DNA from: Pseudomonadota bacterium
GTDB taxonomy: Bacteria; Pseudomonadota; Gammaproteobacteria; Xanthomonadales; Xanthomonadaceae
Length of the DNA stretch: 48,464 nt
Direction: 5' to 3'
Assembly (NCBI GenBank): GCA_018241125.1
Contig: JAFEEL010000006.1
Coordinates: 1-48,464, forward strand
Shown piece after piece: positions 5,595-40,240 of the stretch (its first letter is position 1; the number at the start of each line of letters is the position of its first letter). The notes below the pieces were generated by a model. It did not search any database. It was given only the letters and a program-made list of their open reading frames with translations, and was not told where the DNA came from. A program made the position numbers and the translations under genes.

Positions 5595-8867
<3,273 letters not shown>

Positions 8868-21607: not shown

Positions 21608-21636
21608 GAATCCTTTCTGCCTCTCGCACCCTCATA
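21608..21636 (+). promoter_or_regulatory. ECF-type promoter upstream of grxC
   Basis: GAATCC at 21608-21613, 16 bases, then CCTCATA from 21630. The spacing is identical to that of five other intergenic copies in this transposon, although the -10 side is the weakest match. It lies about 75 bp before the glutaredoxin start in the 304-bp gap after merA; the rest of that gap (21405-21607) shows no gene. The inverted repeat 21625-21644 overlaps the -10 element. Confidence 0.5.
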
Positions 21637-21644
21637 TGGGTGCG
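21625..21644. repeat. Inverted repeat over the grxC promoter -10
   Basis: CGCACCC (21625-21631) and GGGTGCG (21638-21644) form a perfect 7-bp inverted repeat with the 6-base spacer TCATAT. It overlaps the -10 box and the probable transcription start, so it could be an operator or a 5' hairpin in the transcript. No T-tract follows, which argues against a terminator. Confidence 0.4.
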
Positions 21645-21708
21645 GATGACAAGCGCTGACCGCGCTGGTCTGTACGCATGCGCCATTGCCCAAGATCGGA
21701 GGCCTATG

Positions 21709-21987
21709 ATGTCGAACGTCTTGATGTACACCACGCAGACATGTGGGTTCTGTGTGCGTGCCGAGCAGCTCCTCCGACGCAAAGGGGTCAGGGACATCAA
21801 GAAGGTCCGCGTCGACCTGCTGAAAAGTGCGCGAGAAGAAATGATGGCGCGCACAGGTCGTCGAACCGTGCCGCAGATTTTCATCGGCGGTATTCATGCG
21901 GGTGGTTACGATGACTTGGCTGCTCTGGATCGTGCCGGGAAATTGGACGCTCTGCTGAGCGCGGCCGTGACGATGGACGATGCATGA
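21709..21987 (+). CDS. Glutaredoxin 3-type thiol oxidoreductase
   Basis: A 92-residue GrxC-like glutaredoxin. The active site CGFC (residues 12-15) replaces the more common CPYC; TVPQIFI supplies the cis-proline, and GGYDDL is the C-terminal glutathione-binding loop. It would reduce disulfides or mixed disulfides with glutathione in the cytoplasm. Two ATGs are adjacent (21706, 21709); the second is six bases from GGAGG and preferred. It follows the mer operon but has its own candidate ECF promoter, which links it to the bufferin/arsenic regulon. Confidence 0.85.
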   Translation: MSNVLMYTTQTCGFCVRAEQLLRRKGVRDIKKVRVDLLKSAREEMMARTGRRTVPQIFIGGIHAGGYDDLAALDRAGKLDALLSAAVTMDDA

Positions 21988-22209
21988 TGCTTGGATAGAT
22001 CGGTCGAAATGTGGCAGCCTTTCTCAGGCGCCAGACCCACATCCACAGAACTGACGCCTCCACGGTGCCTGAGCAGTTCCTCGCCTGCTGGCGCCGCGGC
22101 GACGTTGTCCAGCACCCGCATTCGCCAGAGGTTTTCTGCCAGCAGCGGCGCAAGATGTATGTCTCGTGAGCCCACCGCACTGCCGTTTCGTATTCCGTAC
22201 GGGATCGCC

Positions 22210-22677
22210 ATGAACTGGTACGTGCGCTCGGAATCTTGGATTTTCATTGTACGCAGCTATCTGCCGCGTCTGATGCTCTGCAGTCTGGTGTGGGAAATCG
22301 CTCAGATGCCGCTTTACACGATGCGGGCTGAACCGCGTCTGCGCTCCTTCGCTTTCGCGGTTGCGCATTGCACCGTGGGTGATGCCGTGATCGGGACCAG
22401 CGCATTGATCATGGCCCTGACCCTGAGCCGAGCCGGTGAACGCACAATCTGGCCGAGAAAAAGGATCGGATGGTTGATGATTCTTCTCGCCATTGCCTAC
22501 ACCTTACCGAGTGAGCGAATCAATCTCGCCGACGGGAACTGGGCCTATTCCACATGGATGCCGGTGGTGCCGTGGGTCGATGTGGGTCTGGCACCCGTGA
22601 TGCAATGGACCATCGTTCCACTCGTCACCTGGTGGTGGGCAAACCGGCAACCCTTCCGTGCGCATGGATTCAGATGA
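22210..22677 (+). CDS. Uncharacterised integral membrane protein
   Basis: A 155-residue protein starting MNWYVRSESWIFIVRSYLPR, with about four hydrophobic segments (for example PRLMLCSLVWEIAQMPLY, WLMILLAIAYTLP, MQWTIVPLVTWWW) and many tryptophans. It is not a family I can name with confidence. The frame is open upstream, and an ATG at 22159 would add 17 residues; I chose 22210 because GGGAT precedes it and hydrophobic sequence begins there. It lies between the glutaredoxin and the kelch lipoprotein on the same strand, so it is probably co-transcribed from the promoter at 21608. No metal-binding cluster is visible. Confidence 0.6.
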   Translation: MNWYVRSESWIFIVRSYLPRLMLCSLVWEIAQMPLYTMRAEPRLRSFAFAVAHCTVGDAVIGTSALIMALTLSRAGERTIWPRKRIGWLMILLAIAYTLPSERINLADGNWAYSTWMPVVPWVDVGLAPVMQWTIVPLVTWWWANRQPFRAHGFR

Positions 22678-22849
22678 GCCGACTCGGGCTCGTGAGGATT
22701 GACCGAGGGCGAGACATCAAACCGTCCCCAGCGCAATGCCTGGCATCGTCTTTGTTGCCATCGTGGGCACGTAATGGTTCGATCCGCATTGGAAGTGTTG
22801 TGTCCAGCGAGCCGAATGCGATGTCCACTTCGATCACGGGGTCTCAGTC

Positions 22850-23947
22850 ATGTTGAAACGCACGCGATTGTCAGCTGCTGCAGCACTTGCCATGCTGGCA
22901 TCCTGTGCAGAGCTGAGGCCAGGTTACGGGCCGCCCTCTGCGGTGCCGGCGCTCCCGGAAGCGGTCAGCAACAACGCGATCGCCGCGATCGAAGTGCCGG
23001 GTGGCTTTCGCCTCTATTCGTTCCTCGGCCTGGAGGCGGGCAAGACCTGGCGCGATATCAGCCGCCGCGCTTTCGAGTTCGATTCACACGCCGGTCGCTG
23101 GCACGAATTGCCGTCGGTGCCGGTGGCGTCGGGCCGGCTTGCCAGCGTAGCCGCGGCTGTCGGTCAACAGGTCTATCTGTTCGGCGGATACACCGTCGCC
23201 GAGAACGGCAAAGAGACCTCCACACCGGAGGTGCTGCGCTTCGAGCCTGCCACGCGCACCTACACCCGGGTGGCCGACATGCCGTTGCCAGTAGACGACA
23301 GCGTGGCACTGGTCTACCGCGATCGCTGGGTGATTCTGGTGAGCGGATGGCACAAGGATGCAAACGTCGCGGCAGTACAGGTCTATGACACCCAGCGCAA
23401 CGCCTGGTCACGTGCGACCGACTGGCCAGGTGCGCCCGTGTTCGGACACGCTGGTGCGATCGCTGGCGAGCAATTGCTCGTTTGCGACGGTGTCCGTCTC
23501 GACGTCGGTGACGACCACAAGCGGCACTTCTCCACCTCCAATCAGTGTTGGCGTGGCCGCATCGGTGCTGCGGACCCTACGCACATTCAATGGAACGCCG
23601 TTTCACCGCACCCTGGAGCACCGCGCTATCGCATGGGCGCAGCCGCACTGCCATCTGCAGACAGGGTGTTTCTTGTCGGCGGCAGCGCGAATCCCTACAA
23701 CTACAACGGCATCGGCTATGACGGCGTGCCATCAGAACCGTCGTCGCAGATCATTGTGTTCGACCTCGATGCCGGTACCTGGCTTGAAGGGCCTGCACCC
23801 GTCGAGGCGACCATGGATCATCGTGGTCTCGCGTGCATCGCGCAACGCTGCTACGCGATTGGCGGAATGCGCCACGGACAGCGGGTCGCCGCGTCGACCT
23901 TGAGCATCGATCTGAAATCGATGCGCGCGCCTTCCGCGACCCGATAG
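22850..23947 (+). CDS. Kelch-repeat (galactose-oxidase-like beta-propeller) lipoprotein
   Basis: A 365-residue protein with a lipoprotein signal: hydrophobic stretch then LASC, predicted lipidation at Cys19. The mature part contains several kelch motifs, seen as VYLFGGY, VFLVGGS and CYAIGGM, each followed by a Trp or Tyr block (GRWHELP, RTYTRV, NAWSRA, GTWLEGP). This gives a five- to seven-bladed propeller. Kelch propellers bind ligands or proteins; some, such as the N-acetylneuraminate epimerase NanM, are enzymes, but no catalytic assignment can be made here. It lies 172 bp behind the membrane-protein gene. No separate ECF-type promoter was found in that gap. Confidence 0.7.
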   Translation: MLKRTRLSAAAALAMLASCAELRPGYGPPSAVPALPEAVSNNAIAAIEVPGGFRLYSFLGLEAGKTWRDISRRAFEFDSHAGRWHELPSVPVASGRLASVAAAVGQQVYLFGGYTVAENGKETSTPEVLRFEPATRTYTRVADMPLPVDDSVALVYRDRWVILVSGWHKDANVAAVQVYDTQRNAWSRATDWPGAPVFGHAGAIAGEQLLVCDGVRLDVGDDHKRHFSTSNQCWRGRIGAADPTHIQWNAVSPHPGAPRYRMGAAALPSADRVFLVGGSANPYNYNGIGYDGVPSEPSSQIIVFDLDAGTWLEGPAPVEATMDHRGLACIAQRCYAIGGMRHGQRVAASTLSIDLKSMRAPSATR

Positions 23948-24026
23948 GCCAGCGTGGCTCCGCCCAGCATGGTGTCCATTCGTCGAGCATCCGTCGCTCC
24001 CCATTGGGTCATCGCGCGGGTGTCAT

Positions 24027-24055
24027 GAATCCATTTGACGAGTCGCCGCCTCTAC
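24027..24055 (+). promoter_or_regulatory. ECF-type promoter upstream of a small membrane-protein gene
   Basis: GAATCC at 24027-24032, 16 bases, then CCTCTAC at 24049-24055, the same -10 heptamer as the bufA promoter. It stands in the 322-bp stretch between the kelch gene and the next start (24270). Apart from this motif I see nothing else supported in that stretch. Confidence 0.55.
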
Positions 24056-24269
24056 TCATTGGCTGGCGTCGGGCAGTGCTTTCCCCGGAACACGGAACAC
24101 GCGCTCGCGGCATCCTGAAACGATGCCTTGCTGCGTGGGTACGGAGAGCGCGAAGGCTCGTTGGCACACAGCGGCATGTCGACAGTCGGGAGCCAGCCAC
24201 ATGGGCAGGTTGTCGTCCGGCGCAGACCCGCTTCCTGCCATCAACGACATTCATCGGAAGGTGGCCACG

Positions 24270-24761
24270 ATGCAGGATGGGGCAATCCAGGACAGCGCCT
24301 TCAAACTCCACAAGATCCTCAACGGGTCCGTCATCGCACTCGCGCTTTTGACCGTGTTGGAGGGGAGCGCGTTGACCGAATGGAGCGCGATGGCGACCAT
24401 TTTCGTGACGCTCGCTTCAAGTGCCGTTGCGGATGTCTTCTCCCAGAGCGTCGCCAATGCGATCGCCTGCAGGCGCCGGGCAACATTTTCAGAAGCTTGG
24501 GTGTCGCTCCGCAGGCACCTTATCATCATTGTGCCCGGCTTCTTGCCGGCGCTGGCATTCGCAGCGGTTTCCGCAGACTGGATGCCCCTCGATACGGCGT
24601 TCGCTATCGCATGCTGGGCCCTGGTGCTGGTCCTGTTCGTTGCCGGCTACACAGCGAGCAGGGTGGGCGGTGGCAGAGGCTGGCGCAATTTCCTCCATGG
24701 GCTGGTCATCAGCGCGTTTGGACTGGGAATCGTCGCTTTGCGCATGATCAAGCCGCATTGA
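24270..24761 (+). CDS. Uncharacterised membrane protein with three or four helices
   Basis: A 163-residue protein starting MQDGAIQDSAFKLHKILNGS, with hydrophobic segments around 20-60 (VIALALLTVLEG; MATIFVTLASSAVADVF), 90-110 (LIIIVPGFLPALAFAA) and 118-140 (FAIACWALVLVLFVAGY). The family is not recognised. The ATG at 24270 follows GGAAGG at a reasonable distance; the frame is open back to 24123 with weaker starts. It is the first gene after the ECF-type promoter at 24027 and is convergent with the EAL gene. No enzymatic motif is visible. Confidence 0.6.
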   Translation: MQDGAIQDSAFKLHKILNGSVIALALLTVLEGSALTEWSAMATIFVTLASSAVADVFSQSVANAIACRRRATFSEAWVSLRRHLIIIVPGFLPALAFAAVSADWMPLDTAFAIACWALVLVLFVAGYTASRVGGGRGWRNFLHGLVISAFGLGIVALRMIKPH

Positions 24762-24821
24762 TTCCGCGGACCCGCGGCGCATTGGGCGATCGGTGGTCCA
24801 GTGTTTGCTTGGTCGCCATGC

Positions 24822-26582
24822 TCAACTTGCGTGGGTCGGTCTCGCAAGGTGCTCCTGGAGCAATGCGCGCATTTCGGCAGCAGGTCTTGGCCTGCCGAAC
24901 ACGTAGCCCTGAACCTGTTTGCAGCCGAATTTGGTGAGCAAGCTGAGTTGGGCTTGCGTTTCAACGCCCTCGGCGATCACGCCCAGGTCGAGACTGTGTC
25001 CGAGAACGATGATGGAGCGGACAATGGCCGCATCCGTTGGCTCGTCGATCATGTGGCGAACGAATGATTGGTCGACTTTCAGCCTGTCGATTGGAAAACG
25101 CTTTAGATAGGACAGAGACGAATAGCCGGTGCCGAAGTCATCCATGGACAGGCCGATGCCGATCGCCTTGAAAGCGTGCAGCACGGTGATCGCGGCGTCG
25201 ACATCATGCATCGCCGCACCCTCGGTTATCTCCAGTTCCAGCCACTGCGGAGCAAGTCCGCTGCTCTCCAGGGCCTGCAGTACCGTTTGCGGTAATTGCG
25301 GATCGGCAAACTGGCGAGGTGAAATGTTGACGGCCATGACCAGGGGAGGCAGTCCGGCCTCCTGCCAGCGCCGATTCTCGGCGCAAGCCGTCGCCAGGAT
25401 CCAGATACCGATCTCGATAATGGCGCCGGTCTCCTCGGCGATCGGGATGAAATCGGCAGGCGAGACCATTCCCTTCATCGGGTGGCGCCAGCGCACCAGG
25501 GCCTCGACGCCTACGATCCGACCGCTCGCAAGATCCAGTTGCGGCTGGTAGTGCAGTTCCAACTCGTCCCGCTCCACGGCGCGACGAAGCGCATGCTCGA
25601 CCTCGAGCCGTTCGAGCGCTCGCGTGCTCATCGCTTCGATGTAGCGAACCGCTCCGCGACCTCCCCTGCGTTTCACCGATTGCAATGCGGTGTCGGCATT
25701 GCGCAGCAGTTCGCTTACATCGGCGCCATCCTGCGGAAAATGTGCGACACCGATGCTGAAGGAAAAGAACATCTCCCGGCCATGGATGACGAAAGGTGCC
25801 GCCATCTCACCTGCCACGCGGGAGGCAAAGCTCGCGAATTCGTTCGGGGCGTCGAATTGAGGCACCAATGCTGAAAACAATTCGCCGTCGAAACGATGGA
25901 TGCAGCAGGTCGATGGGTCACCGGCCGTCAGGAGCGCGAGCCGGTCGGCGATGTCGCACAGGACGCGGTCGGCGACTGCATATCCCAGCGTATCAACGAC
26001 CGCCTGAAAGCGATCCACGCTGAGCAGCAAGACCGCGCCTGTCCGCCGTTCCTCCAATGCCATCGCCACCGTTTTCTCGAAGGCTCGGCGGTTCGGCAGG
26101 TTGGTCAGGGCGTCATGGAAGGCCTGGAATTCCAGTTGCGCTTCCGCCTCTCTACGTTCGGTGACATCGGAAAGATAAATATGAAAACCGGCGGATTCCT
26201 CAAGGCGGTGGACGCTGATGTCGATGAGCCATGCTCCGACCCGATACTCCCAGCGTAGATTCGCCCCCTGGCTCTGGCGCAGTTTCTCCAGGCGCACGGT
26301 GAGATCGTTGGGCAACAGCGCCATTGGCGAGGCCGCTCCTAGGGCGGCGGCCATCGTGAAAGCACTTGGGTTGGCGTACGCGATGACGCCATCGGCGTTG
26401 AGTCGGATGACAGGAGTCGGATTGCGTTCTGGAAACAGGGCGAGTCGTTGGCGTTCTCCAATCTCCCGGACACGAGCCACAAGAAAAAAGCCGACGACGG
26501 CTATGGCGACGAACAGCACCGCGCTGGGCAGGACGACGAAAATGACGATGTCTCCTAGCCGTGCACGTGTGCCGACGCGCAC
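24822..26582 (-). CDS. PAS-GGDEF-EAL protein with degenerate GGDEF (c-di-GMP phosphodiesterase)
   Basis: A 586-residue inner-membrane protein: one N-terminal membrane helix (about 12-34), a PAS-like domain (about 47-150, NPTPVIRLNADGVIAYANPS), a GGDEF domain (about 150-310) and an EAL domain (about 320-575). The GGDEF signature reads FDGEL, so cyclase activity is unlikely. The EAL motifs are intact: EALVRW, NISPRQF, LEITEG, DDFGTGYSSL and EGVETQ, so c-di-GMP hydrolysis is expected. It overlaps the patatin gene upstream by 28 bp. It is the last gene of the operon that starts with an AhpD-like protein, which would place a second-messenger output inside the metal/oxidative-stress regulon. Confidence 0.85.
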   Translation of the reverse strand: MRVGTRARLGDIVIFVVLPSAVLFVAIAVVGFFLVARVREIGERQRLALFPERNPTPVIRLNADGVIAYANPSAFTMAAALGAASPMALLPNDLTVRLEKLRQSQGANLRWEYRVGAWLIDISVHRLEESAGFHIYLSDVTERREAEAQLEFQAFHDALTNLPNRRAFEKTVAMALEERRTGAVLLLSVDRFQAVVDTLGYAVADRVLCDIADRLALLTAGDPSTCCIHRFDGELFSALVPQFDAPNEFASFASRVAGEMAAPFVIHGREMFFSFSIGVAHFPQDGADVSELLRNADTALQSVKRRGGRGAVRYIEAMSTRALERLEVEHALRRAVERDELELHYQPQLDLASGRIVGVEALVRWRHPMKGMVSPADFIPIAEETGAIIEIGIWILATACAENRRWQEAGLPPLVMAVNISPRQFADPQLPQTVLQALESSGLAPQWLELEITEGAAMHDVDAAITVLHAFKAIGIGLSMDDFGTGYSSLSYLKRFPIDRLKVDQSFVRHMIDEPTDAAIVRSIIVLGHSLDLGVIAEGVETQAQLSLLTKFGCKQVQGYVFGRPRPAAEMRALLQEHLARPTHAS

Positions 26583-27736
26583 TGCGCCGGCTGAGTTGCC
26601 AGGATATCGAAGGTGCGCGCCCCAACCTCCGGAGGCATCGGTGCAAGCCAGGGTGCTGCCATTAGGGTTGCCTGGGCGTCCGCAAAGCCCTGCGCCCAGC
26701 GCGTCTGCATCGTCGAACGATCGAACTCGTAGTCCTTCGACTGGCCCTGCGGAGCGACAGGACGATAGATCAATTGGACGATATCCATCGTCGTCACACA
26801 GCGGAAGTCATCGAGCAGCTTCGCTTCGGGTCCACTTCGAAGATCATCGGAGAGTTTCTCCCACAGCTGGTTGATGCTGTGGCGAAGGTCATGCAGGCGT
26901 CGAAGCGAATCGGTGCCTGCGCGCGTCCGGCTGGAATAGCGTATGTCCTTGTCCCGTTCGCTGACCTGGCTTAGATTTTCGGGCAACGCGCCACGCGCGG
27001 GGAAAACATCGACCTGAATGACCAGGTGACTCCTGCGCGGAAAATACTCAATGACATATTGCAGCGGCGTGTTGGAGACGAGCCCGCCGTCCCAGTAGTG
27101 CTCGCCGTCGATTTCGACGGACGGGAATCCTGGCGGCAAGGCGCCGCTGGCCATGACATGCTCTGGTCTGATTTCGATCTGGGCGTTGTCGAAGTAGGCG
27201 AAGTTGCCGGTCCGGACATTCACCGCCCCGACGCTGAAGCGCGTTTCCCTGGCGTTGATGCGGTCGAAATCGACGAGCCGCTCGAGCGTGGATCTGAGCG
27301 CACCGGTGTTGTAGAAGCTCGTCGGTGCGCGGCCGAACCACCAGTCGGCAGGCATGCGAGGCGCAAAGAAGTTCGGCTGACCCAGAACAAGCGCGTGCAT
27401 GGCGCTCATCTGCTTGGTCATCGCGGACGCGATATCGCCGCCGGTGCCGAAGGCGAACGTCGTATCGGTCCAACCGGCGGGCGTTGTGATGCTTCGCCAG
27501 AACTCGCGCAACTTTCCGACCCGTTGTTCCGGAGCATTGCCTGCGATCAATGCAGCATTGATCGCGCCGATCGAAATGCCTGCCACCCAATCGGGTTGGT
27601 AGTCTGAACCTGCAAGCGCCTCGTACACGCCAGCTTGATAGCTACCGAGCGCACCGCCGCCCTGGAGCACGAGGGCTACTCTTTTCGTGTAGCTGGTTGG
27701 CCGTAGCGGCAACGCCTTTACTGTCTGGTCAATCAT
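26555..27736 (-). CDS. Patatin-like phospholipase with DUF3734-type C-terminus
   Basis: A 393-residue patatin-fold acyl hydrolase without a signal peptide. The oxyanion motif GGGALG is at about 26-31, the nucleophile serine at 55 in GISIG, and the catalytic Asp in DGGLVSNTPL near 215, a complete Ser-Asp dyad. The C-terminal part resembles DUF3734, often found on cytoplasmic bacterial patatins. It probably cleaves phospholipid acyl chains. It starts within the stop of the preceding patatin gene (four-base overlap) and overlaps the EAL gene downstream. Confidence 0.87.
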   Translation of the reverse strand: MIDQTVKALPLRPTSYTKRVALVLQGGGALGSYQAGVYEALAGSDYQPDWVAGISIGAINAALIAGNAPEQRVGKLREFWRSITTPAGWTDTTFAFGTGGDIASAMTKQMSAMHALVLGQPNFFAPRMPADWWFGRAPTSFYNTGALRSTLERLVDFDRINARETRFSVGAVNVRTGNFAYFDNAQIEIRPEHVMASGALPPGFPSVEIDGEHYWDGGLVSNTPLQYVIEYFPRRSHLVIQVDVFPARGALPENLSQVSERDKDIRYSSRTRAGTDSLRRLHDLRHSINQLWEKLSDDLRSGPEAKLLDDFRCVTTMDIVQLIYRPVAPQGQSKDYEFDRSTMQTRWAQGFADAQATLMAAPWLAPMPPEVGARTFDILATQPAQCASAHVHG

Positions 27737-29187
27737 CGTGACTTCCTCTTGGAGTTGTAGGCAACTGGCGCGTGATCGAGATCGCCAAGAAAGCTGTTGT
27801 AATCCGGAGACTTCGCCAGGAGTTCTCGCGCCTGTGCAATCAGTGCGTCCACATCCGCGCCACCCAGACGAAACGTGGTGGGCATCGCGTTGAAGCGCTC
27901 ACGCTCTCCGCGGTCCTGGATCTGGTTGAAGGTCAGAATGGCGAAGCGAACCTTCACTTTCGGCTCGTCGGGCGAGCGCAGGGAATTCACATGCGATTCC
28001 CACATCAGGAACCCCTGTTTGGCGAGCGCAATGGTTTCCGTATTGAGGATGCCGAGCGCCGCATCGAACGAGGAGTGCAGCATGTCGATCATGCCGGGTT
28101 CGTTACCGTTCACCGACCAACGGGCCTCCCGGTAGATATCGGCGTTGGCGACCACCACCAGCACATGGCGCACACGTCGCAACCGCTCAGGGGTGAAGGC
28201 GCCCGCCATGTCCGCCACATTTCCGTAGTGGGCGACCGGGCTCATCATCGAGCCGCGCACACCGAGGTTGTCGGTGACGCCTCCATCGACGAGCCGCAGG
28301 ATCGGCATGCGATCCGGATGCGAATAGCGCTCGAGCGCCAACGCGACGACGTGACGTCGGTCGAGGAAGTCGTCGTGTTCCAGCGAGTCCTGCATCCAGG
28401 AGCGATGGCGCTCGCCGCAATCCCCGTAGTTGCGCAGCGCCATCGTGGCGAACGGACCGGGCAGTGCCGACGAGGCCATGACCGCGTTCGCGACCGGATA
28501 GCTGGACAGATCGGAACACAGGAAGTCGAACTGCTGCTGGATGAAGGAAAAGGTGGTCGCGTTGTTGATGTCGCTGGCATTGAGGATGACGAAAGGCAAT
28601 TCGTTTCTGGACATGTCGGAGAACGTCTTGCCCTCGAAAAGCGTGCGATCGAGATAGGCGGCCACCAGGTCGCTGCGGTTGTAGTCCCTGGAGGCCATGG
28701 TGGTCAGGCTCCACGGACGGACAGCCAGGCGGATCAGCTCCCCCTGCCAGTCGCGATAGAGAAAGTCGCGGGTGAAGTCCCGGAAGATGCGATCGCCGAA
28801 CAGCCCGTAATAGGCAGCGGTGTAGCTGCCACCGGACACGGACGTGATCACGTCGACCTCGTCGAGCAACCTCCGCTGCTTTCCGTCGACCAGGATCGTC
28901 GTGTCGCGAAGCGATTCGAGCACGCCATAACTGAAGGCCGCGGCCCGGGTACCGCCTCCCGAGAAGGCGAGGACCACGAAGGTGTCGTCCGGATTGTTCG
29001 GCAGGCGATTGCGGAAGTCGTACCGCTGGTCTGCAGACAGATGCCCGATCGGCTCGTTCCAGACGCGGTGGGCGCACCCGGTGAGAGCGAGCCCGATCAG
29101 CGCAACCAGCAGTACCGGTATCAGGCTGCCGAAGCGCCCAACCCGGCGCGGCGCCGGCTCGACGGTTGGCGGTACGCCGGCGTTCAT
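27733..29187 (-). CDS. Patatin-like phospholipase lipoprotein
   Basis: A 484-residue protein with a membrane-anchoring N-terminus and lipobox LTGC (Cys38), so it is probably a periplasmic or outer-membrane lipoprotein. Patatin motifs are GGGTRA (about 77-82), the nucleophile Ser118 in SVSGGS, and the Asp motif in VDGGVTDNLG. The first Gly of the usual GxSxG is Ser here, a known variation in this branch. Its partner immediately downstream is a cytoplasmic patatin, giving one lipase on each side of the membrane. It lies one base after the AhpD-like gene, so it shares that gene's ECF-type promoter. Confidence 0.85.
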   Translation of the reverse strand: MNAGVPPTVEPAPRRVGRFGSLIPVLLVALIGLALTGCAHRVWNEPIGHLSADQRYDFRNRLPNNPDDTFVVLAFSGGGTRAAAFSYGVLESLRDTTILVDGKQRRLLDEVDVITSVSGGSYTAAYYGLFGDRIFRDFTRDFLYRDWQGELIRLAVRPWSLTTMASRDYNRSDLVAAYLDRTLFEGKTFSDMSRNELPFVILNASDINNATTFSFIQQQFDFLCSDLSSYPVANAVMASSALPGPFATMALRNYGDCGERHRSWMQDSLEHDDFLDRRHVVALALERYSHPDRMPILRLVDGGVTDNLGVRGSMMSPVAHYGNVADMAGAFTPERLRRVRHVLVVVANADIYREARWSVNGNEPGMIDMLHSSFDAALGILNTETIALAKQGFLMWESHVNSLRSPDEPKVKVRFAILTFNQIQDRGERERFNAMPTTFRLGGADVDALIAQARELLAKSPDYNSFLGDLDHAPVAYNSKRKSR

Positions 29188-29188
29188 C

Positions 29189-29746
29189 TCACGCCTTGCG
29201 TTTCCACGCGTACGCGGACAATTCCGGATTGGTTTCGGTGCGCGTCAAGTGGTTCGCATAGTTGCTGAGCGTTTTCATGGCGACGCCGAGCACGACTTCG
29301 AGCGCCTGCTGCGCACTGAATCGGGCGGCGAAGAACTCGGCCATCTCGGCATCCGTGACCCAGCCGCCTTTGGCGACCACGGCGCGGGTGAACCGCGCCA
29401 GGGCACCCAGTCGCGGATCGGGTGGATCGATGCCCGCACGCAGGGCATCGACCGATTCGGTGGGCATGCGCGCCATCCTGAGCGCGATCATGGAATGCGC
29501 GGCGACGCAGAAGTTGCAGCCATTCTCCACGCTGGTGGCGAGCAACACGACCTGGCGCTCGATCTCGGTCAGCGAGGTCTTCTGGAACTGCGCGGAAAGA
29601 CCGAAGTAGGCCTCCAATGCCGCAGGCGCCTCTGCCAGGTGCGCGTACAGGTTGGGGACGAAACCCATGGACTGCTCCGCGCTCACCAGCATGAGTCGGG
29701 AGGCTTCGGGAGCCGTCCGCGGGGTGTGCCGTGGAAAGCAGTTCAT
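29189..29746 (-). CDS. Carboxymuconolactone decarboxylase/AhpD-like protein
   Basis: A 185-residue AhpD-fold protein with the redox motif ENGCNFCVAAHSM (Cys-x-x-Cys then His), as in alkylhydroperoxidase-type proteins that reduce peroxides through a disulfide relay. The ATG at 29746 is five bases from GGAGG. An in-frame ATG at 29914, also behind a GGAGG, would add 56 residues lacking family similarity; because the promoter lies upstream of both, the longer form cannot be excluded. It leads the operon AhpD-like, patatin, patatin, EAL, and is driven by the ECF-type promoter at 29955. Confidence 0.8.
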   Translation of the reverse strand: MNCFPRHTPRTAPEASRLMLVSAEQSMGFVPNLYAHLAEAPAALEAYFGLSAQFQKTSLTEIERQVVLLATSVENGCNFCVAAHSMIALRMARMPTESVDALRAGIDPPDPRLGALARFTRAVVAKGGWVTDAEMAEFFAARFSAQQALEVVLGVAMKTLSNYANHLTRTETNPELSAYAWKRKA

Positions 29747-29954
29747 CGGAGCCTCCGATCGAAATGGACTATCCACGCGAGCACAAGGGACACGCCCGGC
29801 GTGTTCGGGAACATCGGCATAACGTCCCGTTTCGGCTTGACTGCCATGGGGCCCCGCACCGACATCAGGCCAGTCAGCTTGGCTGTCGCGCCGGAATTGC
29901 TTGTCCGTGTTCATCAGACCGACCTCCATCGACGTTGAGAACTTCCTCAACAAT

Positions 29955-29983
29955 GGAGAGGGGGCGATGAGGCAAAAGGATTC
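29955..29983 (-). promoter_or_regulatory. ECF-type promoter of the AhpD/patatin/EAL operon
   Basis: On the minus strand GAATCC (29983-29978) is followed by TTTT within a 16-base spacer and then CCTCTCC (29961-29955). A small inverted repeat, GTTGAG/CTCAAC (29934-29951), sits right after the -10 at the probable transcription start. It is one of six copies with identical spacing in the transposon. Confidence 0.65.
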
Positions 29984-29996
29984 GCCGTGCGACCGA

Positions 29997-30809
29997 TCAA
30001 GGAGTACGTATCGGAGGGCGGCGTTGTGCGTTTCGGATGGGGCGGCCGGCGGTCGGGAACGGATTGGCATAACGTAGCTTCTGGTCCAGATCGAAGGCCG
30101 CTTCGGACAGGACCTCCAGGCTCTGGTCGGCCAGCACGTCGCACGCCGGTTTGCTGGACAGGGAATCGTCACGCGCTGCCAACAACTGGTGAATCTCCTC
30201 ACGACACAATGCGATCACGCCTTCCAGAACCGCGTCGACTTCCGGATACCCCGTATCCAGCGTCATACGGGCGAGCAGCTCCTCAGTCAGGGTGGCACTG
30301 AGCATCAGGTCGCCCGTCACCCAGCTGTTGACGGTGAACAGGCTGGTCGGAACGCCTTTGGCATTCATGCCGATCGCCAGCAGGTGCCGGTTGTTGACCC
30401 GATCGACCGGATCGCCCGTCATGGCCGCGAACTCCTTTTCGGCCTTCGATTGCAACCGCCTGGACCAGAGCCGACGTCGGGCGAACAGGTGGAAATGACC
30501 GTGCTCGATCGCGCCGGGACGGTCTTCGGGCGAATGCGAGTGATAGAACCACTGGTAGCCACTCGCGTGGTCGATCGCATCGTCCTCCGGGTAATGGGCC
30601 CACTGCCGGGGCGGCTGACCACCGAGCAGGCCGTGCAGCAGGTGCTCCCTACGCGCTGCGAGCGCCGCGTAGGTTGCCAACAGGCGCTGGCCGGTGGCCC
30701 GCCGACGGCCATCCAGGTCCTTCGGCGTCCACCGACCGGACACGGGCGCCGTCAGTTCCTGGATGCGCACTTCGGCGCACACTTCGGCGCGCATTTCATC
30801 GCCCCGCAT
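29997..30809 (-). CDS. Conserved protein with EHGHFH motif (DUF6969-like, uncertain)
   Basis: A 270-residue soluble protein. The most telling stretch is YQWFYHSHSPEDRPGAIEHG followed by HFHLF, a His-rich region that could bind a metal. A second block reads LLAIGMNAKGVPTSLFTVN. It resembles the DUF6969 family from memory, which is not a firm assignment, and no function is known to me. The gene overlaps the end of the Cys/His-rich gene by 58 bp, so the two are surely co-transcribed from the promoter at 31130. The start at 30809 is uncertain; 30794 (MRAEV) is possible. The C-terminal 20 residues look poorly conserved. Confidence 0.6.
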   Translation of the reverse strand: MRGDEMRAEVCAEVRIQELTAPVSGRWTPKDLDGRRRATGQRLLATYAALAARREHLLHGLLGGQPPRQWAHYPEDDAIDHASGYQWFYHSHSPEDRPGAIEHGHFHLFARRRLWSRRLQSKAEKEFAAMTGDPVDRVNNRHLLAIGMNAKGVPTSLFTVNSWVTGDLMLSATLTEELLARMTLDTGYPEVDAVLEGVIALCREEIHQLLAARDDSLSSKPACDVLADQSLEVLSEAAFDLDQKLRYANPFPTAGRPIRNAQRRPPIRTP

Positions 30810-31075
30810 TTGGCTGCAGCATGGTGCTTTGCGTGGTGCTTCGCGTGGTGCCTAGCCCTTGCATGATGCGTGGAACCGCACTTGCCCATGCACTTGGCAC
30901 CGCACTGGGCGGCGCATTTGGTGGCGCACTTGGCCATGTCCGGCATGGCCTGGCACTTGGCCTGGGCGTCCTGCATGTCGGCTACGGATGCGGCGGCCGG
31001 GAGGGGCAACGTGGCGGCCGTCAGCGCGGCGACGGTCAGGGCGGTCATCGAGGCGATCTTCAGGTAGTTCTTCAT
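30752..31075 (-). CDS. Secreted Cys/His-rich protein, putative metal-binding peptide
   Basis: A 107-residue protein with a clear signal peptide (basic MKNYLK, hydrophobic core, cleavage near AAA-S about 30). The mature part has ten cysteines. Five are spaced exactly four apart (Cys50, 54, 58, 62, 66), then come four HH pairs (70-71, 76-77, 80-81, 84-85), then Cys90, 95, 99 and 103. CxxxC repeats would put thiols on one face of a helix and the His pairs on another, an obvious soft-metal binding design. GGAG precedes the ATG. It has its own ECF-type promoter. The MNIO enzyme BufB encoded nearby modifies cysteine-rich secreted precursors, so this could be a second substrate; that is inference. 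A metallothionein-like buffer is the alternative. Confidence 0.75.
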   Translation of the reverse strand: MKNYLKIASMTALTVAALTAATLPLPAAASVADMQDAQAKCQAMPDMAKCATKCAAQCGAKCMGKCGSTHHARARHHAKHHAKHHAAAKCGAMKCAPKCAPKCASRN

Positions 31076-31129
31076 GGGTTTCTCCAGTTGGGGTCGTTCG
31101 ACAAGGTTGTGAGGGGTCGCCTCGCTGAC

Positions 31130-31158
31130 TGGGAGGCGACTGGGAGGAAAAAGGATTC
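31130..31158 (-). promoter_or_regulatory. ECF-type promoter of the Cys/His-rich gene
   Basis: Minus strand: GAATCC (31158-31153), TTTTT within the 16-base spacer, CCTCCC beginning at 31136. The start codon of the Cys/His-rich gene is about 55 bases downstream. Confidence 0.65.
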
Positions 31159-31189
31159 ACGCGAGCTGAAAGTTTCTCGATCCAAGTCG

Positions 31190-31747
31190 CTACGCCTTGT
31201 AGCCCTTCACCTCGTCCTCGCTGCTGGCCACACCCAGCCCGAGCGCGATCCGGTTGACGAAGTTGAAGTAGGCGGCGATCAGGTTCGCCAGCAGGATGTC
31301 GGCATCCTCCAGACCGTGCTGACGAAGCGCACCGATGTCCTCCTCACCGATGGATGCCGGGGAGGTGGTCAGCTTGTGCGCGTAATCGGCGAGTGCCCTG
31401 TCCACCGGTCCGAGGTCTGTCTCCCGGTAATCGCCAGCGATGCGTCGCAACAGGTCGGGATCGCGGACGTAGCGCGCAAGCGCCTCCGCGTGATGGCCCA
31501 CGCAATACGCGCAACGATTGGCTCGGGATACCACCACCGCGATCAACTCGCGTTGCCTGCGACCCAGGCCACCGGGTCCGAACAGCAAACCCATGTAGAG
31601 ATCGAGGTGATGCACGAGCGCCGACGGACGCAGACTGTGCACCTTGAGAATGTGGGCGACACGTCCACGCTCCTCGCGAAGCCTTGCGTACACCTCGGCG
31701 ATCTCGCCGGTCGCATCCGATTCTTCGATTTCGGCAATCCAGCTCAT
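31190..31747 (-). CDS. Peroxidase-related AhpD/CMD-family protein
   Basis: A 185-residue AhpD-fold protein starting MSWIAEIEESDATGEIAEVY. The redox site is RCAYCVGHHAEA (Cys-x-x-Cys-x-x-His), with a helical C-terminal half (NLIAAYFNFVNRIALGLG) typical of uncharacterised peroxidase-related enzymes. The preferred ATG at 31747 is preceded by GAGGAC. It is 17 bases downstream of the DoxX gene and is the last gene of the bufferin operon. A thiol peroxidase of this type beside copper-handling genes suggests protection against copper-driven oxidation. Confidence 0.8.
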   Translation of the reverse strand: MSWIAEIEESDATGEIAEVYARLREERGRVAHILKVHSLRPSALVHHLDLYMGLLFGPGGLGRRQRELIAVVVSRANRCAYCVGHHAEALARYVRDPDLLRRIAGDYRETDLGPVDRALADYAHKLTTSPASIGEEDIGALRQHGLEDADILLANLIAAYFNFVNRIALGLGVASSEDEVKGYKA

Positions 31748-31764
31748 GTCCCGTGTCCTCGCTA

Positions 31765-32265
31765 TCAGGCCAGTGCCTGCGACCGCGGCCGGAGCCATCG
31801 ACCCGCCAGCGCGTCGACCGACAAGGCGCCGGGCCCCCAGGCAACCACCGCCAGCAGCATCAGCCCCCAGACCTTGTGATCGGCGAAGTCCTCCATGTTG
31901 AACAGCCCCGTCCAGAATCCATGCGGCCACAGGTCGGGATACGCGACGACGGCGACGATGTTGTAGACGAACAGGATCAGCGCCGTGGGTCGCGCAGCGA
32001 TGCCCACCGCCAGCAGCCAGGGCGTGATCAGTTCGGTCCAGGTGCCCAGAAACGCCGCCGCGTTTCCGGAGAGCAGCGGCACGTGGTACTCGTGGTTGAA
32101 CAGGAACTGGGTACCGGTCGGGTCGGCCAGCTTGACCACGCCCGCCTGCCAGAAGGCGATCGCGACCCAGGCGCGCATCAGCAGCAGGGTCAGCGGGCCC
32201 AGATGCGCGAGCATGACCGCTGCATGCGTGTACAAGGTGGCGGCGCGTTGGAACAGGCGTTTCAT
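31765..32265 (-). CDS. DoxX-family membrane protein
   Basis: A 166-residue inner-membrane protein with four hydrophobic segments (LLLMRAWVAIAFWQAGVVKL; TWTELITPWLLAVGIA; ALILFVYNIVAVVAY; WGLMLLAVVAWGPGAL), which is the DoxX fold. The start overlaps bufC's stop (ATGA, 32265-32262). DoxX proteins are regular members of DUF692/DUF2063 bufferin operons; their exact job is unknown, though a quinone-linked redox role has been proposed for relatives. Confidence 0.85.
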   Translation of the reverse strand: MKRLFQRAATLYTHAAVMLAHLGPLTLLLMRAWVAIAFWQAGVVKLADPTGTQFLFNHEYHVPLLSGNAAAFLGTWTELITPWLLAVGIAARPTALILFVYNIVAVVAYPDLWPHGFWTGLFNMEDFADHKVWGLMLLAVVAWGPGALSVDALAGRWLRPRSQALA

Positions 32266-33056
32266 GACGAGGTGTCCTCCGTGGCAGGATGAATGAAAAC
32301 AATCAGGGATTCTTCCATCAGGCTGCCGATGCAGGCAGCGACATCGAAGTCCGGATCGCTCGCGAGTGCCTGGCAGGTAGCTGCGTCGATGGATGCGCCC
32401 TGCGACAGCGCCGCGATGCAGACGAGACTCGCCGCATCGACCGCAGTCATGGCTACTTCCGCGCCGCTGCGCCAGAGAACGATGCGCTCGCCTTCGGCGG
32501 GGAGCTGCAACCGTTCGCTGTGGGCCCCCATCGCATAGCGCCAGAGCGTCAGCACCGCATGCCGGCTGGCAAACAGCCGCACGCTCGGATCCAGTTCCAG
32601 GCACAGCGCACCCCGCGAGGCGACAGGAACGTCCTGCAGGGCCGTCGCATGAAGCGGCGTGATGTCGGCCGCCAACACAACCTCTTGCCGCAGCCATTCA
32701 AGTCGTGCGACGTCGGCGAGGTACTCCAGTTGCTGCGCACCGGGCAGCGACTCCAGGAACGCCGCGAACTCCGATCCGAAGTCCTGCAGGTTGCCGGAGT
32801 GCGATGGATGGGCGCGTCGGTATCGCATCGCCGCGCTCTCGAAGAAGTCCTCGCCCACCAGCGCCAGCACGGCCGGATAGGTGGTGCGCAAGGTCTCGGT
32901 GTGGGTGAGCGTGCCGCTGTTGCGGTAGACCCGCACGCGCGCTTCGGCGTCGAGTCCGGCGCCCTCGACCAGCGCGGCCGCTGCGGCACGGTCGCCGTCG
33001 TAGAGTGCGGCAAGGAACCGATTCTGCAAGTCACGCAACGAGCTTGCGTCGGACAT
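32262..33056 (-). CDS. bufC: BufC-type DUF2063 protein, bufferin maturation partner
   Basis: A 264-residue protein with the N-terminal DUF2063 domain (about 8-100: RDLQNRFLAALYDGD, then RVRVYRNSGTLTHTETLR) and a second helical domain after about 150. In bufferin operons this protein pairs with the DUF692 enzyme and helps present the precursor peptide through its recognition domain. It overlaps bufB by 26 bp and doxX by four, showing tight coupling. Confidence 0.85.
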   Translation of the reverse strand: MSDASSLRDLQNRFLAALYDGDRAAAAALVEGAGLDAEARVRVYRNSGTLTHTETLRTTYPAVLALVGEDFFESAAMRYRRAHPSHSGNLQDFGSEFAAFLESLPGAQQLEYLADVARLEWLRQEVVLAADITPLHATALQDVPVASRGALCLELDPSVRLFASRHAVLTLWRYAMGAHSERLQLPAEGERIVLWRSGAEVAMTAVDAASLVCIAALSQGASIDAATCQALASDPDFDVAACIGSLMEESLIVFIHPATEDTSS

Positions 33057-33912
33057 CGAGCAACTCCTCGGCCCTCGTGGCTTCCGCCACGAGGACCTCC
33101 AGTTCGGGAATGTCCTGATCCCATTCGATCAGGGTGGGCAGTGGGCCGAAGCGACCGAGCGTGTGCGCATAGAGCGCCCACACCGCGGCATCCACCGGCC
33201 GGCTGTGGGTGTCGATCAGCAGCGGCACCGCCAACCCGTTCCTGCGGGTGAAGCCGGCCAGATGGATCTCGCGTAGTGCTGCCACCGGCATGGCATGCAG
33301 GTAGTCGTTCGGGTCGAAAACGTGATTGACGCTGTTGACGTAGAGGTTGTTGACATCCAGCAGCAGTCCGCAGCCACTGCGCCGCACGGCTTCGGCGACG
33401 AAATCCCACTCGTTGTAGTCCGCCTCGGCAAAGCGCAGGTAGGCCGAGACGTTTTCGACCAGCAGTTCGCGTCCCAGACGCTCCTGCACCTGCTGGATGT
33501 GCGCCACGGTGAGTACCAACGCCTCATGGGTCAGCGGCAGCGGCAGCAGGTCGTTGCTGTGCACGCCGTCCAGAGCGGACCAGCACAGGTGTTCGGACAC
33601 CAGCGCCGGCTGATAGCGGTGGACGAGCTCGGCCAGGCGCGTCAGGTGCCGCTCGTCGAGGACACCCGCCGAGCCCAGCGACAGACCGACACCGTGCAGG
33701 CTGATGGGATAGTCGGCGCGAATCTGTTCCATGCTCGCGTGCATTGCGCCGCCTGCCGCGAACAGGTTCTCGCTGTGCACCTCGAACCAGGGTATGCGCG
33801 GCCTTTCGGCCAGCACCCGTGCCAGATGCGGTGCACGCAGCCCGATCCCGGCCGAAGCCGGGATCGGGTGCAGCGCCGGGGCAGTGGGGAGGGAGGCTGC
33901 CACGGCCGACAC
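33031..33912 (-). CDS. bufB: BufB-type DUF692 multinuclear non-heme iron oxidative enzyme
   Basis: A 293-residue TIM-barrel enzyme of the MNIO (DUF692, MbnB-like) family. Metal-ligand and family motifs are visible in order: EVHSENLF, SLHGVGLSLGS, SEHLCW, LLVENVSAYL, LLLDVNNLYVNS, EIHLAGF, DTHS and IEWDQDIP. These supply His, Glu, Asp and Asn ligands for two or three irons. Family members oxidise cysteines in peptide substrates to copper-binding heterocycles. It starts at a GTG directly after bufA's stop (TGAGTG); the substrate is expected to be BufA. Confidence 0.92.
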   Translation of the reverse strand: MSAVAASLPTAPALHPIPASAGIGLRAPHLARVLAERPRIPWFEVHSENLFAAGGAMHASMEQIRADYPISLHGVGLSLGSAGVLDERHLTRLAELVHRYQPALVSEHLCWSALDGVHSNDLLPLPLTHEALVLTVAHIQQVQERLGRELLVENVSAYLRFAEADYNEWDFVAEAVRRSGCGLLLDVNNLYVNSVNHVFDPNDYLHAMPVAALREIHLAGFTRRNGLAVPLLIDTHSRPVDAAVWALYAHTLGRFGPLPTLIEWDQDIPELEVLVAEATRAEELLDVRRKLVA

Positions 33913-34197
33913 TCAGGGCTTGGCGGGCTTGGTGCTGCCGCCGTCGATCTTCTCGCACAGGCCAGCCGGGGTGGCCACGAACGCATTCGGATCGCGGGCC
34001 CTGGTGTCCTGTCCCGCGCACGAGTGGCCCGGCGACTTGCAGTCGTTCTTGTGTGCGGCGTTGATGCCGTAGCACTTGACCATGTCGCCCATCGGTGCCG
34101 CCTGTCCCTGCTGCATGTCGGCGGCCGAGGCGATAGAGCCCAGGCCAAGGACCATGGCACTGGCCAGAGCGGACTTGAGGATCATGCTGGTGTTCAT
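33913..34197 (-). CDS. bufA: Bufferin precursor BufA (DUF2282-like)
   Basis: A 94-residue secreted peptide precursor. The signal peptide ends near SIASA-AD (residue 25). The core has four cysteines, Cys42 in KCYGI, Cys53 in KNDCKS, Cys60 in HSCAG and Cys81 in GLCEKI, the conserved pattern of DUF2282/bufferin precursors. After modification by BufB the cysteines are expected to become copper ligands exported to the periplasm to buffer copper. AGGAGAG lies before the ATG, and an ECF-type promoter lies 44 bp upstream. It is the first gene of bufABC-doxX-AhpD. Confidence 0.9.
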
Positions 34198-34240
34198 TGA
34201 AAGACTCTCCTGGTTGGACCGGAAATGCTTCCGGTACCCA

Positions 34241-34269
34241 GTAGAGGCAGCACGGGTCGAAAAGGATTC
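34241..34269 (-). promoter_or_regulatory. ECF-type promoter of the bufferin operon
   Basis: Minus strand: GAATCCTTTT starting at 34269, 16 bases between the boxes, CCTCTAC at 34247-34241. It lies between the sigma-gene terminator and bufA. Confidence 0.72.
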
Positions 34270-34282
34270 AGGCGCTATCGGA

Positions 34283-34314
34283 AAAATTTCGGCGGCGCGC
34301 TCAAGGCCGCCGAA
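34283..34314 (-). terminator. Rho-independent terminator of the ECF sigma gene
   Basis: TTCGGCGGC (34288-34296) pairs with GCCGCCGAA (34306-34314), a perfect 9-bp stem with a 9-base loop. Read on the minus strand it is followed by ATTTTT. It lies just after the sigma gene's stop (34323), and insulates that gene from the bufA promoter. Confidence 0.75.
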
Positions 34315-34322
34315 TGACCCGG

Positions 34323-34874
34323 TCAGGAGAAATCGCTGAGGTCGACGGGCTCGCCGGGCGAGGCGAGCAGCTCGCGCGCCAGCAGCCGCGCCCGGTGCAG
34401 GCGCGACTTCGTCGCCGGCAAGCTCAGATCCAGCTTCTGGGCCATTTCCTCCAGCGCCAGTCCCTCGATATCCCTCAGCAGCAGGATCGTTCGGAAGGCG
34501 GGCGGCATCGCGGCCATCATCCTGGCCACCTGCATGCGCCAATCCAGAGGCGCCGGCGTGGCGACCGGCTGTATCCGTTCGTCGATCTCCTGGTTGGTCA
34601 CCATCCGCCAGCCGCGTCGCATGCGATTGCACTCGCGCTTGACGATGCGGAACATCCAGGAGGTAAAGCTCTCCACCGAGCGCAGGTCGCGCAGGCGCCG
34701 CGAGGCCATGAACAGGGTTTCCTGGACGGCATCCTCGACGTCGTTCACCTCGCAGTGGTACTCGGCGTAGCGCCGCAGGTCCTGGCGGGAACACGCCAGC
34801 ACCTCATTCAGGGCCGAGACGTCGCCGGCCTGCGCGGCCTGGATCAGCGCCGGATCGGGCGGCATCGAACTCAT
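34323..34874 (-). CDS. ECF sigma factor (sigma-70 family)
   Basis: A 183-residue group IV sigma factor. Region 2 is visible at about 20-90 ([19 protein letters not shown] and [16 protein letters not shown]). Region 4 is at about 115-175 ([20 protein letters not shown] and [20 protein letters not shown]). The start is ATG 34874; upstream in-frame codons lack a good start. It lies next to bufA, on the same strand, with its own terminator, and is divergent from the arsenosugar operon. It is the only sigma gene in the window, so it is the natural reader of the six GAATCC-N16-CCTC promoters. I see no adjacent anti-sigma factor. No copy of that promoter was found before the sigma gene itself. Confidence 0.92.
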
Positions 34875-34913
34875 TGCGTCCTGTCGTCTTGCAAATTCAA
34901 TTGCATCGATCGC

Positions 34914-34942
34914 GAATCCTTTTGCGGCGTGAGTGCCTCTTG
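34914..34942 (+). promoter_or_regulatory. ECF-type promoter of the arsenosugar operon
   Basis: Plus strand: GAATCCTTTT from 34914, 16 bases between boxes, CCTCTTG at 34936-34942. The first gene starts at 34998. It lies in the divergent region opposite the ECF sigma gene. Confidence 0.7.
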
Positions 34943-34997
34943 AAGGGTAACGGATGATCTTGTCCTGGCGGCGATCATCCAATTACCGGAGGTGCTT

Positions 34998-37148: not shown

Positions 37149-37149
37149 C

Positions 37150-37959
37150 ATGGCGCGGCTACGATGGTTTCTGTTGGTCCTCGCGCTGGCTCTGAGCTTG
37201 CCCGTGATGGCGGACGCACCGGTGTTCGATCGCGGGCACGCGGCCTGGACTGCTTTGCTCAGCAAACACGTGCATTGGAATGCCGAACGGACCGCGACGC
37301 GCGTCGATTACGACGGTTTCCAGCACGACCGTCGGGAACCCGATGCCTATCTGGCAAGCCTGGCGAGCGTCACGCCTGCGCAATACCAGTCCTGGCCGTG
37401 GCCCGACCGCGAAGCCTTGCTGATCAACGCCTACAACGCCGCGACGGTGCAACTGATCCTGACGAAGTATCCCGACCTGGCCTCGATCAAGGATCTGGGC
37501 GGGTGGTTTTCCTCGCCGTGGAGACAGCCCTTCGTGATCCTGCTCGGCCAGACCCGCAGCCTGGATGACATCGAGCAGGTCCTGTTGCGTGGAGCGCCCG
37601 AGTACAGGGATCCAAGGGCGCACTTCGCCGTGAACTGCGCCTCGCTCGGTTGCCCTGCTCTGCGCGACGAAGCCTACGTCGGTTCCCGGCTCGACGGGCA
37701 ACTCGAAGACCAGGCGCGTCGGTTCCTGCGCGATCGCAACCGCAACCGGTTCGACCGTGCAGACCGCCGCATGCTGGTGTCCTACATCTTCGATTGGTAT
37801 GCCGTGGACTTTCACCGGGTCGGCGGCGTGGGCGGTTTCCTCGCCGGCTACGCCGACGCACTCGGCATGACCACAGCCGAAACGGCCGACCTGCGCGCCG
37901 GCCGCATCGGCATCGACTACCTGCCGTACGACTGGTCGTTGAACCGGAGTCGGCCATGA
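37150..37959 (+). CDS. Secreted DUF547 protein
   Basis: A 269-residue protein with an N-terminal signal peptide (FLLVLALALSLPVMA-D, about 22 residues) and a DUF547 domain: VDYDGFQHD, WPDREALLINAYNAATV, HFAVNCASLGCPALR and an ending with IDYLPYDWSLN. DUF547 proteins are distantly transglutaminase/peptidase-like, with a Cys and His arrangement; the NCASLGCP segment holds the candidate cysteine. Function is unknown. It starts two bases after the preceding stop and often accompanies TVP38/oxidoreductase genes in arsenic clusters. Confidence 0.8.
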   Translation: MARLRWFLLVLALALSLPVMADAPVFDRGHAAWTALLSKHVHWNAERTATRVDYDGFQHDRREPDAYLASLASVTPAQYQSWPWPDREALLINAYNAATVQLILTKYPDLASIKDLGGWFSSPWRQPFVILLGQTRSLDDIEQVLLRGAPEYRDPRAHFAVNCASLGCPALRDEAYVGSRLDGQLEDQARRFLRDRNRNRFDRADRRMLVSYIFDWYAVDFHRVGGVGGFLAGYADALGMTTAETADLRAGRIGIDYLPYDWSLNRSRP

Positions 37960-38071
37960 TCCCGTGCTGGCGCGATCGCACCCCATCGTTCGTCGCACTT
38001 TCGCAATGGATGCGGCTGTCCTCAGTGGGGTTGTTGCTCCCTCGCCGCATCGCCTCCTGGAGATCCACACC

Positions 38072-39166: not shown

Positions 39167-39184
39167 GCTTCGGAGAAGAAAACG

Positions 39185-40234: not shown

Positions 40235-40240
40235 GCGGCC

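Follow-up and report, generated by a model that had tools for sequence, protein, structure and literature searches.

Parts of several published accounts describe systems close to the one reported here. The extracytoplasmic function (ECF) sigma factor SigF of Caulobacter, which is accompanied by NrsF and serves a small set of genes, acts at GTAACC-N16-CGAA promoters and, like the sigma factor proposed below, controls DUF2282-DUF692-DUF2063-DoxX operons in metal stress through boxes held 16 nucleotides (nt) apart (PMC3511200). RpoE7 (ECF16) of Sinorhizobium meliloti likewise controls a DUF692/DUF2063 operon together with itself, from promoters of the GTAAC/CGAA type and with the anti-sigma factor EcfR7 (PMC6180224). 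In the gigPABT-rpoQ-rsqA region of Cupriavidus metallidurans, a bufferin-related gig operon induced by copper and gold lies beside an ECF sigma gene, with the predicted membrane anti-sigma factor RsqA also present; the dependence of gig on RpoQ is assumed there rather than demonstrated (PMC10304878). A gig-type operon responsive to copper and gold also resides on a mobile element in Legionella, the GIG operon of ICE-beta-ox, an integrative and conjugative element rather than a Tn3 transposon, for which the part of the paper considered here reports tests of RpoS and LetA and no dedicated ECF sigma factor (PMC5413113). Here, we analyze a stretch of 48,464 nt, contig JAFEEL010000006.1 of the Xanthomonadaceae assembly GCA_018241125.1, to which we will refer as the window. 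It carries six copies of the element GAATCC-N16-CCTC, which we interpret, with a probability of about 0.87, as the promoters of a single regulon under an ECF sigma factor, borne by a Tn3-type transposon of 32.9 kb, its units most likely acting together against soft metals and oxidative or thiol stress.

A scan of both strands of the window found this element at 21608 (+), 24027 (+), 29983 (-), 31158 (-), 34269 (-), and 34914 (+), with no seventh copy. An initial annotation of this DNA had given the same positions and strands. The expected count is 0.19, and none of 100 dinucleotide shuffles contained six or more copies. Spacing is equally distinctive: N16 gave six matches, each of N12 to N15 and N17 to N30 gave none, and N4 to N11 gave zero to two. 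GAATCC itself occurs 31 times on the two strands, followed by CCTC at N16 in 6 cases; the annotation had noted that other GAATCC copies checked by eye lack it, which agrees with our search. The same holds for its statements that four copies share GAATCCTTTT, that two (24027 and 34269) share CCTCTAC, and that every copy is intergenic and faces the first gene of a transcription unit, the last of these borne out by the open reading frame (ORF) and sequence listings. At each site, GAATCC would serve as the -35 box and CCTC as the -10 box. The units so governed would be a glutaredoxin gene, a small membrane protein gene, an AhpD-patatin-patatin-GGDEF/EAL operon, a Cys/His-rich gene with DUF6969, a bufferin operon, and a TVP38-reductase/PiT/arsenosugar operon. 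Because the element is a transposon and the genome holds two related islands, the recurrence might instead stem from transposition, which would have duplicated and scattered upstream DNA without selection for promoters. We regard this as hardly credible, since outside the boxes the six sites seem, by eye, unrelated in both spacer and flanking sequence, and the first genes 3' of the sites belong to different families.

Across the whole 3.07-Mb genome, the strict pattern has 13 matches, 6 in the window, 1 on a second contig (C2), and 6 elsewhere; the number of those elsewhere is within chance, given the roughly 12 expected genome-wide when the window shuffles are scaled up. The prediction that genome-wide hits would lie almost exclusively in the transposon cargo was therefore not borne out, and we rejected plain GAATCC-N16-CCTC as a genome-wide signature, given that 6 of 13 matches fall outside both islands. 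The gene location of these background hits does not discriminate either, as one true C2 site overlaps a long stop-free frame. An extended form, GAATCNTTT-N13-CCTC, has nine matches, five in the window and four on C2, and none elsewhere; the TTT extension was picked after the sites had been seen, and it misses the window site at 24027, which reads ATTT. The reversed pattern gave zero matches in this genome for both the strict and the extended form, a weak control because it contains CTAAG, which is expected to be rare.

The C2 matches mark a second, diverged bufferin/arsenosugar island (L009 6900-16000 and L010) with its own paralogous sigma gene, 41% identical at the protein level to that of the window. 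Its genes include the Cys/His gene, DUF6969, bufABCD, CMD, merT, the TVP38-reductase, PiT, ArsM, and a glycosyltransferase. Of the four sites on C2, one is found at C2:21777; the others stand before the Cys/His gene, bufA, and the TVP38-reductase gene. The island is thus a predicted replicate of the regulon within the same cell. The idea of a regulon in the window stands insofar as six sites and a sigma gene are found there; it has to be widened in that the regulon extends beyond the window, with four sites and a separate sigma gene on C2.

The window sigma gene (34323-34874, minus strand) encodes 183 amino acids with Sigma70_r2 and Sigma70_r4_2 domains and no sigma3 domain, the architecture of an ECF sigma factor. 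As initially annotated, it is the only sigma gene recognized, here among 28 ORFs scanned with Pfam, which are a subset of those in the window. Among the NCBIfam models listed for its ECF group, the general superfamily model alone passes its cut-off. Our literature search, whose range did not extend to the 2021 ECF reclassification, found no paper judged to describe this ECF motif or the YgaP-like (DUF2892) partner of the sigma factor discussed below.

To relatives of this sigma factor we applied a second line of evidence. A homologue at E <= 1e-25 is present in 52 of 198 searched genomes of the family, our own included. From a wider homologue scan, the best 80 loci were kept, with more in existence; they include Lysobacter, Pseudoxanthomonas, Variovorax, Mesorhizobium, Streptomyces, Nocardia, and Myxococcales. 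Homologues at E <= 1e-20 also occur on 24 plasmid records. Of the 80 loci, 42 have the pattern GAA[TC]CN-N16-[CA]CTC within 400 bp 5' of the sigma match. The remaining spacings between 10 and 22 each gave 0 to 3 of 80, the background expectation is about 0.5 of 80, and the reversed control gave none, so that the N16 peak of the window recurs in these loci as expected of fixed-spacing, bipartite ECF target promoters. The 80 loci are related, and the 42 are therefore not 42 independent events. A logo of 43 sites concentrates its information in GAA[TC]C[CG]TTT and CCTCT, two ECF-like boxes. We also scored the best site upstream of 33 sigma genes; picking the best site biases this measure, and the argument therefore rests on the 80-locus count. 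The sites, with their spacing, orientation, conservation, and co-occurrence with this sigma family, are features of the sequences themselves.

We next compared target genes in 44 loci, comprising two overlapping C2 stretches, three relatives' loci, a Citrobacter plasmid, and 38 of the best 80. A site was counted within 300 bp upstream of a gene, with the 300 bp downstream as the control; a sigma match (L122), an EAL match (L109), and a reductase match (L010) were excluded because they fell at the edge of a contig or stretch. Sites lie upstream of the Cys/His gene in all four other loci that have it (C2, G001, G002, and L160) and upstream of bufA in four of six (C2, G001, L115, and L120), with no downstream match for either. 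For the TVP38-reductase gene the count is 3 of 8 (C2, L092, and G011, where the copy seems truncated; downstream, 1), and for the sigma gene in this set it is 24 of 43 (downstream, 2). arsM (1/4) and bufD (1/7) each have a downstream count of 0, and PiT has a downstream count of 1.

Bufferin loci that lack the sigma factor provide the complementary comparison. In a set of 30 bufB loci, taken best first from the 153 genomes of the family in which bufB had a match, two of the five sigma-plus genomes (our own and G001) have the motif upstream, as against none of the 25 sigma-minus genomes. In 10 of these 25 relatives, a SigF-like pattern slightly looser than GTAACC-N16-CGAA is present instead; the loci with the GTAACC-N16 pattern 5' of bufB are L186, L187, L191, L197, L198, L201, L202, L205, L208, and L209. 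Since the sigma-minus loci are free of our motif and some are SigF-like, two or more ECF systems seem to govern the bufferin operons of this family. SigF-type control of the window operon was considered and rejected: no SigF-like GTAACC-N16-CGAA pattern was found upstream of the window bufB, and a search for the anti-sigma factor NrsF, positive in the Caulobacter control, had no match in our genome.

Taken together, the presence of the same element before the sigma gene and before some of the same targets elsewhere, and its absence at 25 sigma-minus loci, supports reading the six sites as promoters of the local ECF sigma factor. A two-half-site repressor or activator might also bind two boxes at a fixed spacing, in which case the sigma gene would be a passenger. 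This we consider very unlikely, because boxes and spacing are of the ECF type, because the element lies 5' of the sigma gene in those 42 loci, across Proteobacteria and Actinobacteria and with differing neighboring genes (20 loci looked at), and because it is missing from the bufferin loci of the 25 relatives without the sigma factor.

Several observations weigh against assigning all six sites to this sigma factor. No upstream site was found in 38 of the 80 sigma loci, and no site faces the sigma gene in the window or in the two loci with its nearest relatives, L092 and G011. Positive autoregulation is usual, and not universal, among ECF sigma factors. L092, for its part, has three GAATCC sites beside a sigma factor 76% identical to that of the window. 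Across the family, the strict TTT form shows no more than mild enrichment, with 12 matches in 8 of the 51 other sigma-plus genomes versus 13 in 12 of the 146 sigma-minus genomes (reversed control, 4 matches over all 198), and a strict match is absent from 43 of the 52 sigma-plus genomes, where sites are often GAACC or ACTC variants. Upstream of DUF6969, sites are no more frequent than in the downstream control (2/6 for each). Homologues of grx (0/2), ahpD (0/6), and pat2 (0/1) have no site upstream, and none downstream, in the 44 loci, so that promoters 1 to 3 are assigned by motif match. Footprinting against sigma genes, target genes, and sigma-minus loci favors the proposal that the local sigma factor reads six promoters; for promoters 1 to 3, no conserved counterpart was found. 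With these corrections, the observation made in the initial annotation is confirmed and its interpretation, as far as sequence comparison goes, is largely supported.

Which of the two paralogues reads the promoters is a separate matter. We built trees of 27 sigma and 19 bufB rows. A single clade (98/95) unites the bufB genes of the window, C2, G001, Rhodanobacter L115, and Natronospirales L120, each of whose loci has the promoter at bufA; the corresponding sigma factors fall on three supported branches (100/98, 99/99, and 99/95). It is therefore likely, from these topologies, that the promoter was kept while the sigma gene was exchanged, and the C2 sigma factor may then also read the window promoters. 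The main reader could even be the C2 paralogue, or both equally, with the window sigma factor redundant or recently swapped in. Besides the trees, the parallel island with its four matching sites speaks for this, as does the stretch KSRLHRAR, identical in both sigma factors within region 4, the part that reads the -35 box. Set against it are the boxes themselves, GAATCG in 3 of 4 C2 sites versus GAATCC in all six window and all three L092 sites, and the position of the window sigma gene inside the regulon with its reading frame intact; we find such a role for C2 plausible though on the doubtful side. We favor a single regulon in which the window sigma factor, probably sharing the role with its C2 paralogue, would recruit RNA polymerase to the six units. 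Because the C2 sigma factor probably has the same DNA specificity, transcription starts at the six sites may not vanish when the window sigma factor is removed. In two Lysobacter-type loci (L029 and L076), the closest sigma branch is found upstream of an EGKCG-repeat precursor, in L029 with an MNIO gene as well, and not before a DUF2282 operon; the sigma factor and the operon of the window therefore seem to come from different bufferin types.

Along the plus strand, predicted promoter 1 (21608..21633) ends its CCTC 73 nt 5' of the grx ATG at 21706 and would drive a unit headed by the glutaredoxin gene (21706..21987; PF00462, 2.9e-19; start at ATG 21706 or 21709). Predicted promoter 2 (24027..24052, plus) precedes a VIT-like small membrane protein (24123..24761, plus, starting at 24123 or later) with a weak VIT1 match under the cut-off. 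Predicted promoter 3 (29958..29983, minus) precedes a unit of abutting or overlapping frames on the minus strand (24822..29914, from Pfam, NCBIfam, and the ORF listing), in the order AhpD-like (29189-29914), patatin (27733-29187), patatin with DUF3734 (26555-27736), and GGDEF-EAL (24822-26582). Predicted promoter 4 (31133..31158, minus) lies before a secreted-looking Cys/His-rich protein without a family match (30752-31075, minus), followed by DUF6969 (29997-30803, minus). The Cys/His-rich protein has many Lys-Cys pairs. In both beta- and gammaproteobacteria, members of the same sigma family have this gene pair beside them, again with the Cys/His gene preceded by the promoter. The pair might encode a further modified peptide that binds metal, together with its partner.

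Predicted promoter 5 (34244..34269, minus) precedes the bufferin operon (31190..34197, minus; Pfam and NCBIfam): bufA (33913-34197; DUF2282 over and the BufA2 model under its cut-off), bufB (33031-33912; MNIO, 378 bits against an NCBIfam cut-off of 310), bufC (32262-33056; DUF2063 over the cut-off), a bufD/HvfX-like gene (31765-32265; HvfX model under the cut-off), and, last, a CMD protein gene (31190-31747). The DUF2282 precursor, MNIO BufB, DUF2063 BufC, and DoxX-like protein of a Buf1 operon are all present. Predicted promoter 6 (34914..34939, plus) faces the TVP38-reductase/arsenosugar unit (34992..43371, plus; Pfam and NCBIfam), whose first gene starts with GTG at 34992. It encodes a fused TVP38-MerA-like reductase, DUF547, a PiT transporter, an ArsM-like methyltransferase, TIGR04283 and TIGR04282 glycosyltransferases, and the radical SAM protein ArsS (TIGR04167, 435 bits against a cut-off of 300). 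The ArsM-like protein and the two arsenosugar-type glycosyltransferases match their models under the cut-offs; ArsS together with ArsM is the combination expected of an arsenosugar operon. The six units most likely share the task of protecting the cell from soft metals and from oxidative or thiol stress, and the program would combine copper chelation, thiol repair, arsenic reduction and methylation, and envelope remodeling.

No anti-sigma gene was recognized adjacent to the window sigma gene, and control of ECF sigma factors without an obvious anti-sigma factor is named as an open question in the part of PMC8103513 considered here. Two cysteines in sigma region 2 are strongly conserved among the best 80 homologues (Cys41 in 78 and Cys82 in 79); the homologue search patterns did not include them, and four generic ECF rows in the alignment lack Cys82. 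This conservation suggests direct sensing of metals or thiols by the sigma factor. Some loci have a small YgaP-like membrane protein with CPxC before the sigma gene (five of five submitted matched PF11127), and in others a small RGCPxCW protein follows it (four submitted, no Pfam match). On C2, inspection by eye places a YgaP-like membrane protein that contains CPMC before the sigma gene. An AlphaFold model of the sigma factor has a pLDDT (predicted local distance difference test) of 72 and a pTM (predicted template modeling) score of 0.46. We infer the binding of the sigma factor, the inducing signal, and the means of inactivation; the sigma factor may be held inactive by the two region 2 cysteines or, in the C2 branch, by the CPxC membrane partner. 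A broader picture, which we offer as speculation and think unlikely to hold in full, is of a widespread ECF family in Proteobacteria and actinobacteria such as Streptomyces and Nocardia, without a classical anti-sigma factor, in which Cys41 and Cys82 are direct sensors of metals or thiols, in some cases together with a CPxC membrane partner. The GAAYC-N16-CTC specificity of the family would be so conserved that sigma factors swap between mobile metal islands while promoters stay, and one transposon-borne sigma factor would plug copper, arsenic, lipid, and cyclic di-GMP genes into one response.

The six sites and the sigma gene all lie within a 32.9-kb segment between two terminal inverted repeats of 56 nt (left, 13864..13919, plus; right, 46713..46768, minus) that are 88% complementary. 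A 32-nt core of these repeats matches the genome only twice, with up to three mismatches, both times at the element ends. The segment also carries a Tn3-family transposase gene (43595..46660, plus; PF01526, 1.7e-113). Canonical Tn3 ends read GGGG...TAAG; these were not seen at the 56-nt repeats. By eye, no clear 5-bp target duplication was found at the element ends, which are placed approximately. The description of the cargo as transposon-borne is upheld by the repeat pair and the transposase, without a target duplication found. Immediately inside the left repeat is a KfrA-like, plasmid-type DNA-binding protein (13990-15066, minus). An ISL3-family transposase (16880-18273), with inverted repeats of 38 nt (87% complementary) on either side, is an insertion within the larger element beside mer-like genes. 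Outside the inverted repeats lies a restriction/defense-like block (414-8915, minus) with a ResIII helicase, a GmrSD N-terminal domain protein, and an N6/N4 DNA methylase.

If this reading is correct, a transposon with its own sigma factor and matching promoters moves a whole metal-stress program as a unit, in contrast to separate operons that each depend on a host regulator. Bufferin operons would have a second control system besides SigF/NrsF, and the promoter would provide a searchable signature for new metal-stress genes, such as that of the Cys/His-rich protein with DUF6969. The control of an ECF sigma factor without an obvious anti-sigma factor would also become directly testable through the two cysteines.

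Among mobile elements, the conjugative Citrobacter amalonaticus plasmid NZ_CP083652.1 offers a parallel, with a Tn3 transposase, the same sigma family with both cysteines, bufABCD, a TVP38-reductase, and GAATCCTTTT-N12-CCTCTT before its buf-containing unit. It differs in that its sigma factor belongs to another branch (37% identical to the window sigma factor), in having one full GAATCC-N16-CCTC in 33 kb (L182, 13000-46000), and in that no arsenosugar genes are listed there. The account of bufferin clusters also describes Buf1 clusters with sigma and NrsF genes; its main text is without the word "promoter," and the part considered here has no such motif or transposon (PMC12452194). Compared with Caulobacter, the window has predicted GAATCC-N16-CCTC promoters, no NrsF found in its genome, and six units that include arsenosugar, patatin, and GGDEF/EAL genes. 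The predicted regulon therefore differs from known ECF-controlled bufferin regulons in its sigma family and motif, in the lack of a detectable NrsF, in its larger number of units, and in its Tn3-type carriage.

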